Shown here: positions 34,740 to 38,228 of the stretch, one piece after another
Position numbering within the stretch: the first letter of the stretch is position 1
How the letters are laid out: every line of letters starts with the position of its first letter
Source: Prochlorococcus marinus CUG1433
GTDB taxonomy: Bacteria; Cyanobacteriota; Cyanobacteriia; PCC-6307; Cyanobiaceae
NCBI GenBank assembly: GCA_017644425.1
Contig: JAEPLN010000001.1
Span: 372,001 to 436,000, forward strand
Length of the DNA stretch: 64,000 nt
Direction: 5' to 3'
Translations under genes and position numbers: made by a program
The notes under the pieces: model-generated
What the model was told of the DNA's origin: nothing
Database searches by the model: none
What the model saw: the letters and a program-made list of their open reading frames with translations, nothing else

Positions 34740-36155
34740 TTAACCCTGAACATCAAGCTTGTCGACAGTGTCAAACTCAAACTTAATTTCCTTCCAAGTT
34801 TCTAGAGCAATAGCTAATTCAGGGCTATGCTTAGCAGCTTCCATAAGAATGTCTCTACTCTCTTTTTCGATTTCGCGACCAGCATTACGTGCTTTTACAC
34901 AAGCTTCTAAAGCAACTCTGTTAGCTGCAGCTCCAGCGGCTGAACCCCATGGATGACCGTGTGTTCCTCCACCGAACTGAAGACAAGAATCATCTCCAAA
35001 AATCGCTAGGAGTGCAGGCATATGCCATACGTGAATACCACCTGATGCGACAGCAAATACTCCTGGCATTGAACCCCAATCTTGATCAAAGAAGTTACCT
35101 CTTGATCTATCTTCAGGAACGAATGACTCTCTTAAGTTATCAATGTAACCAAGGGTTGTTTGACGATCACCTTCCAGTTTTCCAACAACAGTTCCAGTAT
35201 GTAATTGATCTCCTCCGGAGAGTCTCAAACATTTTGCTAGAACCCTGAAATGGATACCGTGTTTTGGATGTCTATCAATAACAGCATGCATCGCTCTATG
35301 AATATGAAGAAGCATGCCATTTTTACGACACCAGTTTGCTAATCCAGTATTTGCAGTAAAACCACCAGTTATATAATCATGCATGATGATTGGCATATCT
35401 AGCTCTTTTGCAAATTCAGCTCTTTCGTAGAGTTCTTCAGGAGTGTTAGCAGTACAGTTTAGATAGTGACCTTTAACTTCTCCAGTTTCTCGTTGAGCAA
35501 GTTTAACTGCTTCTGCAACAAACTCAAATCTTTCTCTCCAACGTTGGAATGGCTGAGAGTTTATATTCTCGTCATCCTTCGTTAAATCAAGACCACCTCT
35601 AAGGCACTCATATACAACTCGACCATAGTTTTTACCAGATAATCCTAATTTAGGTTTAATGGTACAACCAAGAAGAGGTCTTCCGTATTTATTAAGTCGA
35701 TCTCTTTCAACTACGATTCCATTTGGTGGACCGCCGCAAGTTTTGATGAAAGCGATTGGAAATCTAATATCTTCTAGACGTAAGTGTCTTAGAGCTTTAA
35801 ATCCAAAAACGTTTCCTACTAGAGATGTTAATACGTTTGTAATAGAACCTTCTTCAAAAAGATCTAAAGGATATGCAATAAAAGCATAAAAAGCTTCAGG
35901 ATCTCCAGGAACGTCCTCGATTCGATAACAACGTCCTTTATAAAATTCTAAATCTGTAAGTAACTCGGACCAAACTGTTGACCAAGTACCTGTTGAAGAT
36001 TCAGCGGCAACAGCTGCTGCAACTTCTTCTCTGGGAACACCTTCTTGACCTGTACATTTGAAACAGGCTAATAAATCGGTGTCTAGGGGTACATATTCAG
36101 GAGTCCAGTAGGTATCTCTGTACTCCTTTACCCCTGCATCATACTTCTTACTCAT
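34740..36155 (-). CDS. cbbL: Rubisco large subunit, form IA (CbbL/RbcL)
   Basis: The 471-residue large subunit fixes CO2 onto ribulose-1,5-bisphosphate. [21 protein letters not shown] holds catalytic Lys, [11 protein letters not shown] contains the carbamylated Lys and metal-binding Asp/Glu, and [12 protein letters not shown] and [19 protein letters not shown] give later active-site residues. The sequence and the csoS1/csoS2 setting mark the form IA (proteobacterial) type of Prochlorococcus and marine Synechococcus. A spacer of 69 bases with a palindrome separates it from csoS1. Confidence 0.98.
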
Positions 36156-36195: not shown

Positions 36196-36215
36196 GCAAA
36201 ATTTACAAATTTTGC
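36196..36215. other. Perfect 9-2-9 inverted repeat between csoS1 and cbbL
   Basis: GCAAAATTT-AC-AAATTTTGC reads as a near-continuous palindrome beginning 10 bases after the csoS1 stop. As RNA it would fold to an 8-bp hairpin with a 4-base loop. There is no strong T-run after it on the coding strand. It could be a processing or stabilising element, or a regulator site for an internal cbbL promoter. Confidence 0.5.
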
Positions 36216-36224
36216 TTTACTTAA

Positions 36225-36536
36225 TTAGTCCTTTTGACCAAGAAATTCACCGTTACCAAGAGCAGGTTCAACTTCTCTATGAGGACGAGCAATAATGTGA
36301 GCTGCGACTAAACCGTCACCAACTCTTTCACAAGCATCAGCACCAGCTCTTACAGCTGCGTTAACTGCGCCTGTTTCGCCTCTAACTAATACTGTGACAT
36401 AACCGCCACCTACGAATTCACGACCAATAAGGCGAACTTCTGCTGCCTTTGTCATTGCGTCTGCTGCTTCGATTGCAGGTACAAGTCCGCGTGTCTCGAT
36501 CATGCCGAGAGCGATACCCATTGTTTCTGTAGCCAT
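36225..36536 (-). CDS. csoS1: Carboxysome shell hexamer protein CsoS1
   Basis: A 103-residue BMC-H shell protein. IALGMIETRGLVPAIEAADAMTKAAEVRLIG and GYVTVLVRGETGAVNAAVRAG are the hexamer core, and AHIIARPHREVEPAL is the C-terminal strand. It forms the facets and pores of the alpha-carboxysome. A single copy is present, first in the operon, as in Prochlorococcus. Its leader carries the 14-base sequence repeated at 36786-36799. Confidence 0.97.
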   Translation of the reverse strand: MATETMGIALGMIETRGLVPAIEAADAMTKAAEVRLIGREFVGGGYVTVLVRGETGAVNAAVRAGADACERVGDGLVAAHIIARPHREVEPALGNGEFLGQKD

Positions 36537-36554
36537 TGTCTACTAAATACTAAA

Positions 36555-36568
36555 TGTGGAATGTTCAA
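36555..36568. repeat. 14-bp direct repeat, copy 1 (csoS1 leader)
   Basis: TGTGGAATGTTCAA occurs here and identically at 36786-36799. Here it lies 19 bases upstream of the csoS1 ATG, so on csoS1 mRNA it would read TTGAACAUUCCACA close to the ribosome-binding region. Confidence 0.75.
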
Positions 36569-36759
36569 TTCGAAGAATGCTTCATTAAGTACTTATAAGT
36601 CAAGCGTTTTCGACAAAATCTCCATTAATGTTTTTTCTATCATTCATAAGTTAAACTTATCACCCTTGGTACTATTGATATGTCAATACTTATGCAAATT
36701 AGTTAGTGCATCAAAACATACTGTTGTGTTAAGAAAAAATTTACATTATGTTATTTCCG

Positions 36760-36816
36760 TACGAGGCAGGCCCTGTCTACACAGGTGTGGAATGTTCAAC
36801 CTTTCCTGTCTCCGTA
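36760..36816 (+). ncRNA. Candidate structured small RNA or rdgB leader, with csoS1-complementary loop
   Basis: The outer stem pairs TACG and AGGCAGG (36760-36770) with CCTGTCT and CGTA (36805-36816), 11 pairs with one bulge and one G-U. An inner hairpin CCTGT-CTAC-ACAGG is at 36772-36785. The segment between (36786-36804) is unpaired and contains TGTGGAATGTTCAA, which is complementary to the predicted csoS1 leader (17 pairs counting two G-U at the edge). A plausible promoter ends about 8 bases upstream. The G+C content is well above its surroundings. No terminator is evident, so it could also be just the rdgB 5' leader. Confidence 0.4.
36786..36799. repeat. 14-bp direct repeat, copy 2 (in structured element)
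   Basis: This is the second exact copy of TGTGGAATGTTCAA. It falls in the predicted single-stranded part of the structure at 36760-36816. The two copies start 231 bases apart. An alternative reading is a duplicated protein-binding site. Confidence 0.75.
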
Positions 36817-36863
36817 TCAAGCTTTGAAGTAAGATAATATTCACAATAAATTTATTTGTTATT

Positions 36864-37448
36864 TTGAACCTTCCAGTTCTAACTATTGCTAGTGGCAATC
36901 AAAGAAAAGTATCTGAAATTTCAGAGATGCTGGATGTTTTGTCTTTAAAGGTTCAGAAGCAACCAGAATATTTAAATGTCGAAGAGACTGGAAACACATA
37001 TTTTGAGAATGCACTTCTAAAAGCAAAAGCAGCTGCTTTAGAGACTAAAACTTGGGCATTAGCTGATGACTCGGGTCTTGAAGTAGATGTTTTAGATGGT
37101 CGGCCAGGAATTTATTCTGCTCGATATGCCAAAAATAATGATGAGAAAATTAAAAAATTAATCAATGAACTTTCTGATAGTCCTTACAGAAGTGCAAGAT
37201 TTATAAGTTGTATGGTTTTGTGCGATCCCTCAGGAAACTTAGTTAAAGATACAACAGGAATATGCTGGGGAGAAATTCTTAAGAACCCCAAATACCCAAA
37301 TGGGGAGTTCGAATCTATTTTTTGGGTTAAAGAAGCTAATTGTGTTTACGGTGAACTCACACAATCGCAACTAAATAAATTAGGTAGTAGAGGTAAAGCT
37401 GCAAAAATTATGTCACCTTTTTTAAAAAAAGAGATGGGTTTAAGTTAA
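36864..37448 (+). CDS. rdgB: XTP/dITP pyrophosphatase (RdgB/HAM1 family)
   Basis: The 194-residue protein starts at TTG 36864. TIASGNQRKVSEISEML, the family Glu in NVEETGNTYFENALLKA, and ALADDSGLEVDVLDGRPGIYSARYA with the metal Asp pair identify it. It hydrolyses noncanonical purine triphosphates to keep the nucleotide pool clean. The C-terminal FLKKEMG is typical. In marine picocyanobacteria it commonly separates csoS1 from csoS1D, as here. Confidence 0.92.
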   Translation: MNLPVLTIASGNQRKVSEISEMLDVLSLKVQKQPEYLNVEETGNTYFENALLKAKAAALETKTWALADDSGLEVDVLDGRPGIYSARYAKNNDEKIKKLINELSDSPYRSARFISCMVLCDPSGNLVKDTTGICWGEILKNPKYPNGEFESIFWVKEANCVYGELTQSQLNKLGSRGKAAKIMSPFLKKEMGLS

Positions 37449-37457
37449 AAAAAATTC

Positions 37458-38228
37458 TCAATAATTTGAAATTTCATCAATTGCTCTAATAGCAGCTGCT
37501 GCTGCCTCTTCTACATCTCCTTCTTTCCCTGCGAGAGTTAATCTACCAAAAGCTCCAACTGCCTTAACATCAACAACAGTAATATTTGAGGCTTTTTCTG
37601 CTTCATTTGCTGCTTTTAAAACATAACCAGCTGGTTCAGTTTCTAGTATAAACATGCTCATTCCGGATTGAATCATTGATCCGCTTCTGTTTTGTCTATT
37701 TATTAAAACTGCATGATCAGGAGTAATTGCTCTAATAACTTCAGTCCAACTCGTTGAAGGTTTTGTTCTTTTTCTAACTTCACTCCCAATAGCATCTAGA
37801 ACAACATCTCCAGAATGTAAAACCGTGCTTTGATCTTTATGGTAAAGAGCAAGAGATCCAAATGCTCTTTCAACAATCATCTGACCTAGTCTCACATTAC
37901 TAGCCTTTAAGGCAATATCAGTCACTCTATGAACGGCCATTCCAGGTGAAACTTCCATCCAAAGACATGAATCTCCAGGAATTGGTAAAAAACCTCTACT
38001 AACGGTTCCCATATATGCCGCCAATTGGGGCTGTAGAGAATCCAAAAAAACATATGTTCTCAACTCAATTTGTTCAACTTGACTTGCTTGTCTGGATACC
38101 AAAGATTTTTCTGAATCAGTTGTAATAAAACAGCTTGCACCACTGGCCTGAGATTGCACCTCAGATCCTGTGACAAGAGAACTGCCTTTTTTTCGTTCCC
38201 CTCTGTTTAAACTAGAAGTTGGTTCCAT
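37458..38228 (-). CDS. csoS1D: Tandem-BMC carboxysome shell protein CsoS1D
   Basis: The 256-residue protein has a basic, disordered N-terminus of about 50 residues and then two BMC domains: [56 protein letters not shown] and [62 protein letters not shown]. Double-BMC trimers of this kind stack face to face and have large gated pores. It is part of the carboxysome shell though separated from csoS1 by rdgB, which is on the opposite strand. No direct linkage to the main operon. Confidence 0.94.

Follow-up and report, generated by a model that had tools for sequence, protein, structure and literature searches.

A conserved structured RNA with a loop complementary to the 5' end of the csoS1 mRNA is a probable base-pairing regulator in alpha-carboxysome cyanobacteria

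The window, i.e., the whole stretch of 64,000 nucleotides of Prochlorococcus marinus DNA that was analyzed, contains a gap of 327 bases between csoS1 and rdgB; csoS1 and rbcL are minus-strand genes, and rdgB is encoded on the plus strand. Two copies of the 14-base sequence TGTGGAATGTTCAA lie in this gap, at 36555-36568 and 36786-36799, both on the plus strand, with 18 bases between the former and the csoS1 ATG. These copies, which had been reported in the initial annotation, are exact and the only ones in the whole window. A direct repeat of at least 14 bases is rarely produced by chance here, as it was found in only 2 of 1,000 dinucleotide shuffles of the 327-base gap. The features of the locus, together with the evidence on which each is based, are the following:

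36225 to 36536, minus strand: csoS1, first gene of the cso/rbc operon and proposed target (NCBIfam BMC_CsoS1, 186.1 bits, cut-off 166)
36552 to 36568, minus strand: target site in the csoS1 mRNA leader, TTGAACATTCCACATTT, with the core GAACATTCC at 36566-36558 (conserved complementarity; 16 pairs predicted)
36574 to 36603, minus strand: csoS1 promoter-like hexamers TTGACT (36603-36598) and CATTCT (36579-36574) (spacing of TTGAC to GAACATTCC)
36724 to 36752, plus strand: probable promoter of the RNA, TTGTGT-17-TATGTT (sequence and by-eye comparison; transcript not shown)
36763 to 36812, plus strand: structured RNA element P1-P2-P3 (full match to covariance model R1, 64.7 bits, model positions 1-54; covariation)
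36763 to 36770, plus strand: 5' strand of P1, GAGGCAGG (alignment and covariation)
36772 to 36785, plus strand: P2 hairpin CCTGT-CTAC-ACAGG (single-sequence fold, alignment and covariation)
36789 to 36801, plus strand: P3, GG-AATGTTCAA-CC, with the seed loop complementary to the csoS1 mRNA 5' end (alignment, complementarity and covariation)
36805 to 36812, plus strand: 3' strand of P1, CCTGTCTC (alignment and covariation)
36864 to 37448, plus strand: rdgB, the next gene downstream of the RNA, with a TTG start (NCBIfam TIGR00042 (RdgB/HAM1), 148.4 bits, cut-off 145.35; Pfam Ham1)

The apparent TTG start of rdgB at 36864 has counterparts in most loci compared, where the start codon that most closely precedes the conserved N-terminus of the protein is likewise TTG. 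Downstream of rdgB, a BMC-domain protein is encoded at 37458-38228 on the minus strand; its sole NCBIfam match, CcmP, remains below the cut-off, and we take the protein to be CsoS1D-like.

In line with the initial annotation, a fold with an outer stem and the hairpin CCTGT-CTAC-ACAGG is predicted for 36755-36820, with the second repeat copy in a loop. The outer stem P1 encloses P2 and P3, the loop of the latter presenting GGAAUGUUCAA. The single-sequence fold reaches -18 kcal/mol, which corresponds to a z-score of only -1.4 and is matched by 18 of 200 shuffles; energy alone is therefore no proof of a structured RNA. The element was extracted from many genera, and 57 distinct copies were aligned with MAFFT to build a covariance model, after one csoS1-leader copy had been taken out of the list and the 5' end of one element had been set by hand. 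With the hand-drawn structure, 92.6% of the cells in this alignment pair, and both this percentage and the covariation score exceeded those of all 500 shuffles, while two-sided changes were found at 6 pairs, a count that was reached by 21 of the 500 shuffles, with one slid version reaching 7. A model-fitted alignment of 69 elements, which includes those of marine Synechococcus-like genomes, showed 94.4% paired cells and two-sided changes at 11 of 16 pairs (0 of 500 shuffles). Its covariation score was 0.239, compared to 0.124 for the shuffles, none of which (0 of 500) reached the observed value, and slid versions scored no higher than 0.088. It should be noted that the 69-element alignment was fitted to the covariance model, and that the unfitted MAFFT result is weaker.

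The compensatory nature of these changes is apparent from P1, for which the consensus in Prochlorococcus-like genomes is GAGACAGG/CCUGUCUC (with P3 being GG-AAUGUUCAA-CC), while marine Synechococcus-like genomes carry very different letters with the pairing kept, for example GGAACGG/CCGUUCC (locus L291) and GCAACACG/CGUGUUGC (L292), with more replacements elsewhere. Furthermore, G-U pairs are frequent in P1 and P2 (22 at one pair of P1) and can form only on the plus strand, which speaks for a plus-strand RNA. A conserved secondary structure with compensatory changes, as expected of a base-pairing regulatory sRNA, is thus present. No Rfam family reached its gathering score for the element, the only match in the window being one tRNA, and the best Rfam score in 36500-36900 was that of JA04, with 18 bits where 81 are needed.

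The initial annotation had asked whether both repeat copies and the stems are conserved in relatives, and this is the case across dozens of genera. When 400 genomes of the family were searched at the DNA level, approximately 30 bases around the second copy were often found to remain where the rest of the gap has diverged. The first covariance model identified the RNA in 263 of the 400 genomes and 44 of 59 genera at an E-value of 0.1 or better, and the second in 269 genomes, again from 44 genera, with one copy in nearly all matching genomes. In a sample of the phylum, the RNA was found in 27 of 291 genomes, all 27 of which belong to the Cyanobiaceae, and a pattern scan of named genomes returned exclusively Prochlorococcus or Synechococcaceae among the matches listed (at least 80). 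The RNA-carrying clade is, as is well established, the one with alpha-carboxysomes (PMC13249358). Viral contigs containing the bare 14-mer were dropped as unspecific (at least 120 matching stretches), and a longer pattern, covering only the loop and the Prochlorococcus-type 3' strand of P1, had no match in viral contigs. One contig (C17 of genome G266) carries two equal-scoring copies of the RNA near both of its ends (1129-1183 and 35678-35732), which perhaps represent an assembly duplication.

On the target side, an alignment of 53 loci gave CTTGAC...gCAttgT for the csoS1 promoter region. In 51 of them, the distance from the start of the first TTGAC to GAACATTCC is exactly 37 nt. This fixed spacing places the motif, which lies 28-34 nt before the csoS1 ATG in these loci, at the inferred 5' end of the csoS1 mRNA. 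The proposal that the target lies beside the ribosome-binding region thus has to be revised, since in the window it occupies the inferred mRNA 5' end, approximately 16-32 nt upstream of the ATG. A transcription start of csoS1 further downstream, which had been raised as a possible refutation, is not indicated, as the start inferred from the conserved promoter with its fixed spacing falls at the motif. The promoter region itself (CTTGAC...CAttgT) is strikingly conserved with fixed spacing throughout the family, and its second hexamer is far from TATAAT. In the leaders of csoS1-like paralogues, the motif was absent in both cases tested (L266 and L268).

The extension of the pairing by one A-U and two G-U pairs, as given in the initial annotation, is correct by sequence, and the isolated 16-pair duplex of RNA and leader in the window has a predicted energy of -22.8 kcal/mol. 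Across relatives, the leader motif GAACATTCC was exact in each of the 137 locus pairs, from 127 genomes, in which the RNA is present as well, and the RNA seed was exact in 136 of these and G-U compatible in the remaining one. The 137 pairs include 10 repeats of genomes, and 81 stem from the genus of the window; the RNA was recognized here by the loop pattern and P1 pairing, not by the covariance model. Excluded from the 150 loci were 13 in which csoS1 or the RNA lies outside the stretch; at least in G094, G122, and G127, where the contig begins there, and in G114, the stretch stops inside the gap and the leader is intact.

In freshwater-type genomes, the bicarbonate transporter gene sbtA lies between csoS1 and the RNA, increasing the distance to 1.6-1.9 kb. 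Despite the intervening gene, the leader motif was intact in 10 of 10 further genomes, 7 of which have an exact RNA seed, and in 6 of 7 genomes of another sbtA-type set, the exception being G583. In the latter genome, the RNA is present and the csoS1 found (L265) has an abnormal start and no motif, possibly owing to a misassembly. sbtA was recognized by Pfam Sbt_1 in L250 and by a short motif in L251, L299, L300, L304, L308, L310, and L519-L528, and the RNA is divergent to sbtA in these loci. Since the RNA is encoded approximately 200 nt from its target site in the window, and 1.6-1.9 kb from it in sbtA-type genomes, it does not meet the definition of a cis-antisense RNA.

Co-evolution of the two partners was analyzed by scoring a 7-nt extension beyond the seed for pairing, with one locus per genus from 29 genera and five draws. 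Matched pairs reached 5.60-5.74 of 7 positions compared to 5.11-5.26 on average for swapped pairs, and the observed values were attained by 0-2 of 20,000 permutations over the five draws (0-26 without the genus of the window). For a stricter measure of contiguous pairing, the corresponding numbers of permutations, again out of 20,000, were 0-20 and 7-178. Mismatches in the extension (6 positions, 40 distinct pairs) were U.G in 26 cases versus C.A in 4, an excess that may in part reflect the G-rich P2 arm. It should also be noted that the extension overlaps P2 and is itself constrained by P2 pairing, and that relatedness inflates the permutation values. Within the 9-nt seed, no compensating double change was identified in any genome examined: G443 has a changed leader without a rescuing RNA, both partners are changed in G360, leaving two mismatches without rescue, and a one-base change of the RNA seed accompanies an intact leader in G399, G311, G408, and G358. 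Thus, a seed complementary to an mRNA leader across species, as is expected of a base-pairing sRNA, is conserved with exceptions, and while this co-evolving complementarity is observed, pairing in the cell remains an inference from it. By eye, no recurring gene that could represent a second target was found among the 30 occurrences of GAACATTCCA in 5 genomes; 10 of these are the csoS1 leader or the RNA itself, and each of the remaining 20 overlaps a mechanically called reading frame in sense or antisense orientation.

We furthermore compared the leaders of genomes with and without the RNA. The RNA-negative sample comprised 15 genomes, mostly chosen for completeness from the listed model-negatives, plus G298; csoS1 was present in 13 of the 15, and since G298 proved RNA-positive with model R2, 12 genomes remained that are RNA-negative by both models. 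The leader motif is changed in 8 of these 12, compared to 3 (G443, G360, and G583) of 156 RNA-positive genomes (127 + 22 + 7, with 153 intact leaders), corresponding to a Fisher p of 6e-9, which is too optimistic owing to relatedness. Counted by genus, an intact leader was found in all 39 RNA-positive genera examined (of 44) but in only 2 of the 8 RNA-less genera examined (of 15; p = 3e-6). Genera g45 and g30 each have an RNA-negative member with a changed leader, while the RNA-positive members examined are intact. Against a strict co-loss, G273 and G313 retain the motif without a detected RNA, and G293 and G282 retain it with a decayed one: the degenerate copy of G293 stands in the usual position (L375, 609-662, 14.1 bits), and decayed remains are visible by eye in G282. 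No convincing compensating seed was found in regions of approximately 8 kb of the 12 RNA-negative genomes. In five loci lacking the RNA (L367-L371, from G288, G296, G299, G301, and G312), the csoS1 start motifs are altered (GAACTTC, GAACCTCC), and no partner RNA for these altered motifs was found within approximately 8 kb.

The existence of a transcript and the position of its 3' end are inferred. The hexamers TTGTGT and TATGTT, separated by 17 bases, are indeed present at 36724-36729 and 36747-36752, as had been claimed; they are missing from the list of a generic promoter scan. In many relatives, TTGC...TATTTT stands at the same place directly before P1, as judged by eye from the upstream regions of 69 elements. 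P1 is, as a rule, not immediately followed by a run of T residues (in L222, one occurs a few bases further along), and no terminator-like site was found on the plus strand in 36200-37500, so that an own terminator or defined 3' end, which would be expected of an independent small RNA, is not apparent. In most loci with a recognized rdgB, this gene starts approximately 45-85 nt after the end of P1 on the same strand, and the RNA could therefore be the 5' part of the rdgB message. It is thus conceivable, although we regard it as unlikely, that the element represents a structured leader acting in cis on rdgB, either like a riboswitch or by stabilization, and that its resemblance to the csoS1 leader has a function for rdgB or is fortuitous. 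The short distance and the lack of an intervening terminator-like site in the window fit such a leader, but rdgB is more distant in some sbtA-type genomes (IASGN codon at +281, +484, and +726 from the seed), and the most conserved part of the element is the exact complement of the 5' end of another mRNA, with co-evolving flanks and co-loss. Moreover, a leader would not exclude a role in trans, as an RNA derived from it could do both. That the element acts as a separate small RNA rather than a processed rdgB leader, and that it controls csoS1, are both inferences.

A DNA function of the repeat, with GGAATGTTC as a twice-present operator for a carbon-responsive regulator at the csoS1 start and the divergent transcription unit, would agree with the same-strand direct repeat and its fixed distance to the csoS1 promoter, and conservation alone cannot separate DNA from RNA function. 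Nevertheless, the second copy forms the loop of an RNA fold supported by covariation, located approximately 26 nt past the start of P1 and not at a promoter, and an operator leaves P1, P2, and P3 unexplained, which makes this reading quite improbable. The pairing data would fit either direction of regulation, so that the abundant cso mRNA could, through its 5' end, titrate or trigger the decay of the RNA or of the rdgB mRNA. To this we give hardly any weight, since several lineages keep the cso operon without the RNA and with a changed motif (although the order of loss has not been reconstructed); a motif that is changed where the RNA is missing is what would be expected if the motif exists for the RNA.

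We therefore consider it likely, with a probability of roughly 80%, that the element is a base-pairing regulatory RNA of alpha-carboxysome cyanobacteria acting on the 5' end of the cso mRNA. A plus-strand transcript, divergent from csoS1, would start at P1 from its own promoter and adopt the fold supported by covariation, with P1 enclosing P2 and the P3 loop. The loop GGAAUGUUC, together with the neighboring 3' arm of P2, could then base-pair in trans with the initial 9 to 16 nt of the cso operon mRNA, and the predicted duplex would cover approximately nucleotides 1-16, i.e., the 5' part of the short leader, ending shortly upstream of the ribosome-binding region. In this position, it should affect how csoS1, the first shell gene, is translated, how stable the operon mRNA is, or both. 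The sign of this regulation is likewise inferred. A relief of masking, in which the leader 5' end would otherwise sequester the Shine-Dalgarno region, was evaluated and rejected as a general mechanism: with the first bases forced unpaired, the openness of this region changed by a mean of 0.02 and at most 0.18 upward in 137 loci. As masking is not generally predicted, a masked start being freed is unlikely, leaving hindered ribosome loading or 5'-end protection, between which we slightly favor a damping of csoS1 translation, at little better than even odds. Only tentatively can the RNA be proposed as a removable cap, i.e., a family-wide RNA dedicated to one operon that shields the first 9-16 nt of the cso mRNA from decay and thereby couples shell supply to light or inorganic carbon. 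A comparable geometry is reportedly found for the FasX sRNA of Streptococcus pyogenes, which is said to pair with the extreme 5' end of the ska mRNA and to stabilize it. Both RNAs would pair with the first nucleotides of their targets, yet no relation between them is known, the sign for the cso RNA is unknown while FasX stabilizes, and the cso RNA differs in being encoded next to its target and in its family-wide conservation.

The name CsoR1, possibly given to an RNA near csoS1 in marine Synechococcus, was not found in a literature search and is only a lead. Yfr10 of strain MED4 pulled down csoS1 and csoS2 mRNA as Yfr10-specific targets (Lambrecht 2019, PMC6778093), and the cso mRNA may accordingly receive more than one RNA input. 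Yfr1, Yfr10, and Yfr2 of picocyanobacteria resemble the RNA described here as small structured RNAs with a conserved unpaired motif (PMC6778093). Yfr10 differs in that its row in Table 1 of Steglich 2008 places it at 346661-346738 in MED4 beside Yfr2 and, as far as this row tells, not beside csoS1; the portion of that paper available describes no ncRNA row beside csoS1 in Table 1 and contains no "csoS" in its text. Cluster 87 of Axmann 2005, listed as "Region upstream of the rbcLS cluster containing conserved promoter" with two sequences and the entry NT (PMC1242208), is, by its wording, probably the same intergenic region, although the row makes no mention of a csoS1-complementary loop. RblR, an antisense RNA to rbcL in Synechocystis, is another RNA regulator of a carbon-fixation gene, but it is a fully complementary cis-antisense RNA (PMC6202907), whereas the cso RNA is encoded at a distance of approximately 200 nt or more and has a complementarity of 9-17 nt to its target. 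Yfr103 is a different RNA, with seven paralogues of 290-328 nt in CC9605 (PMC5069720). In the available text of a 2026 review of cyanobacterial carbon concentration, neither "sRNA" nor "small RNA" occurs at the start of a word (PMC13249358). Our literature search, in which some sources were available only in part, found no published description of an RNA in the csoS1 gap, and a prior report, including one in later Yfr lists, cannot be excluded.

Prochlorococcus and its relatives are responsible for much of the carbon fixed in the ocean and possess few protein regulators, and, to our knowledge, the post-transcriptional regulation of the alpha-carboxysome operon is an open question. If the cap reading is true, we would know of no earlier small RNA devoted to the alpha-carboxysome; alpha-cyanobacteria from both marine and freshwater habitats would have retained it, and its loss would have gone along with that of its target motif. 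The presence of the RNA in 44 of the 59 genera searched, usually as one copy and with one conserved target site at the cso mRNA 5' end, means that this question can be approached by simple mutation in marine Synechococcus or Cyanobium, which are tractable. The RNA and the csoS1 leader also provide a clear example of co-evolution between an RNA and its target, with both partners frequently decaying together, and this small RNA probably tunes the carbon-fixing machinery in Prochlorococcus and many of its relatives.
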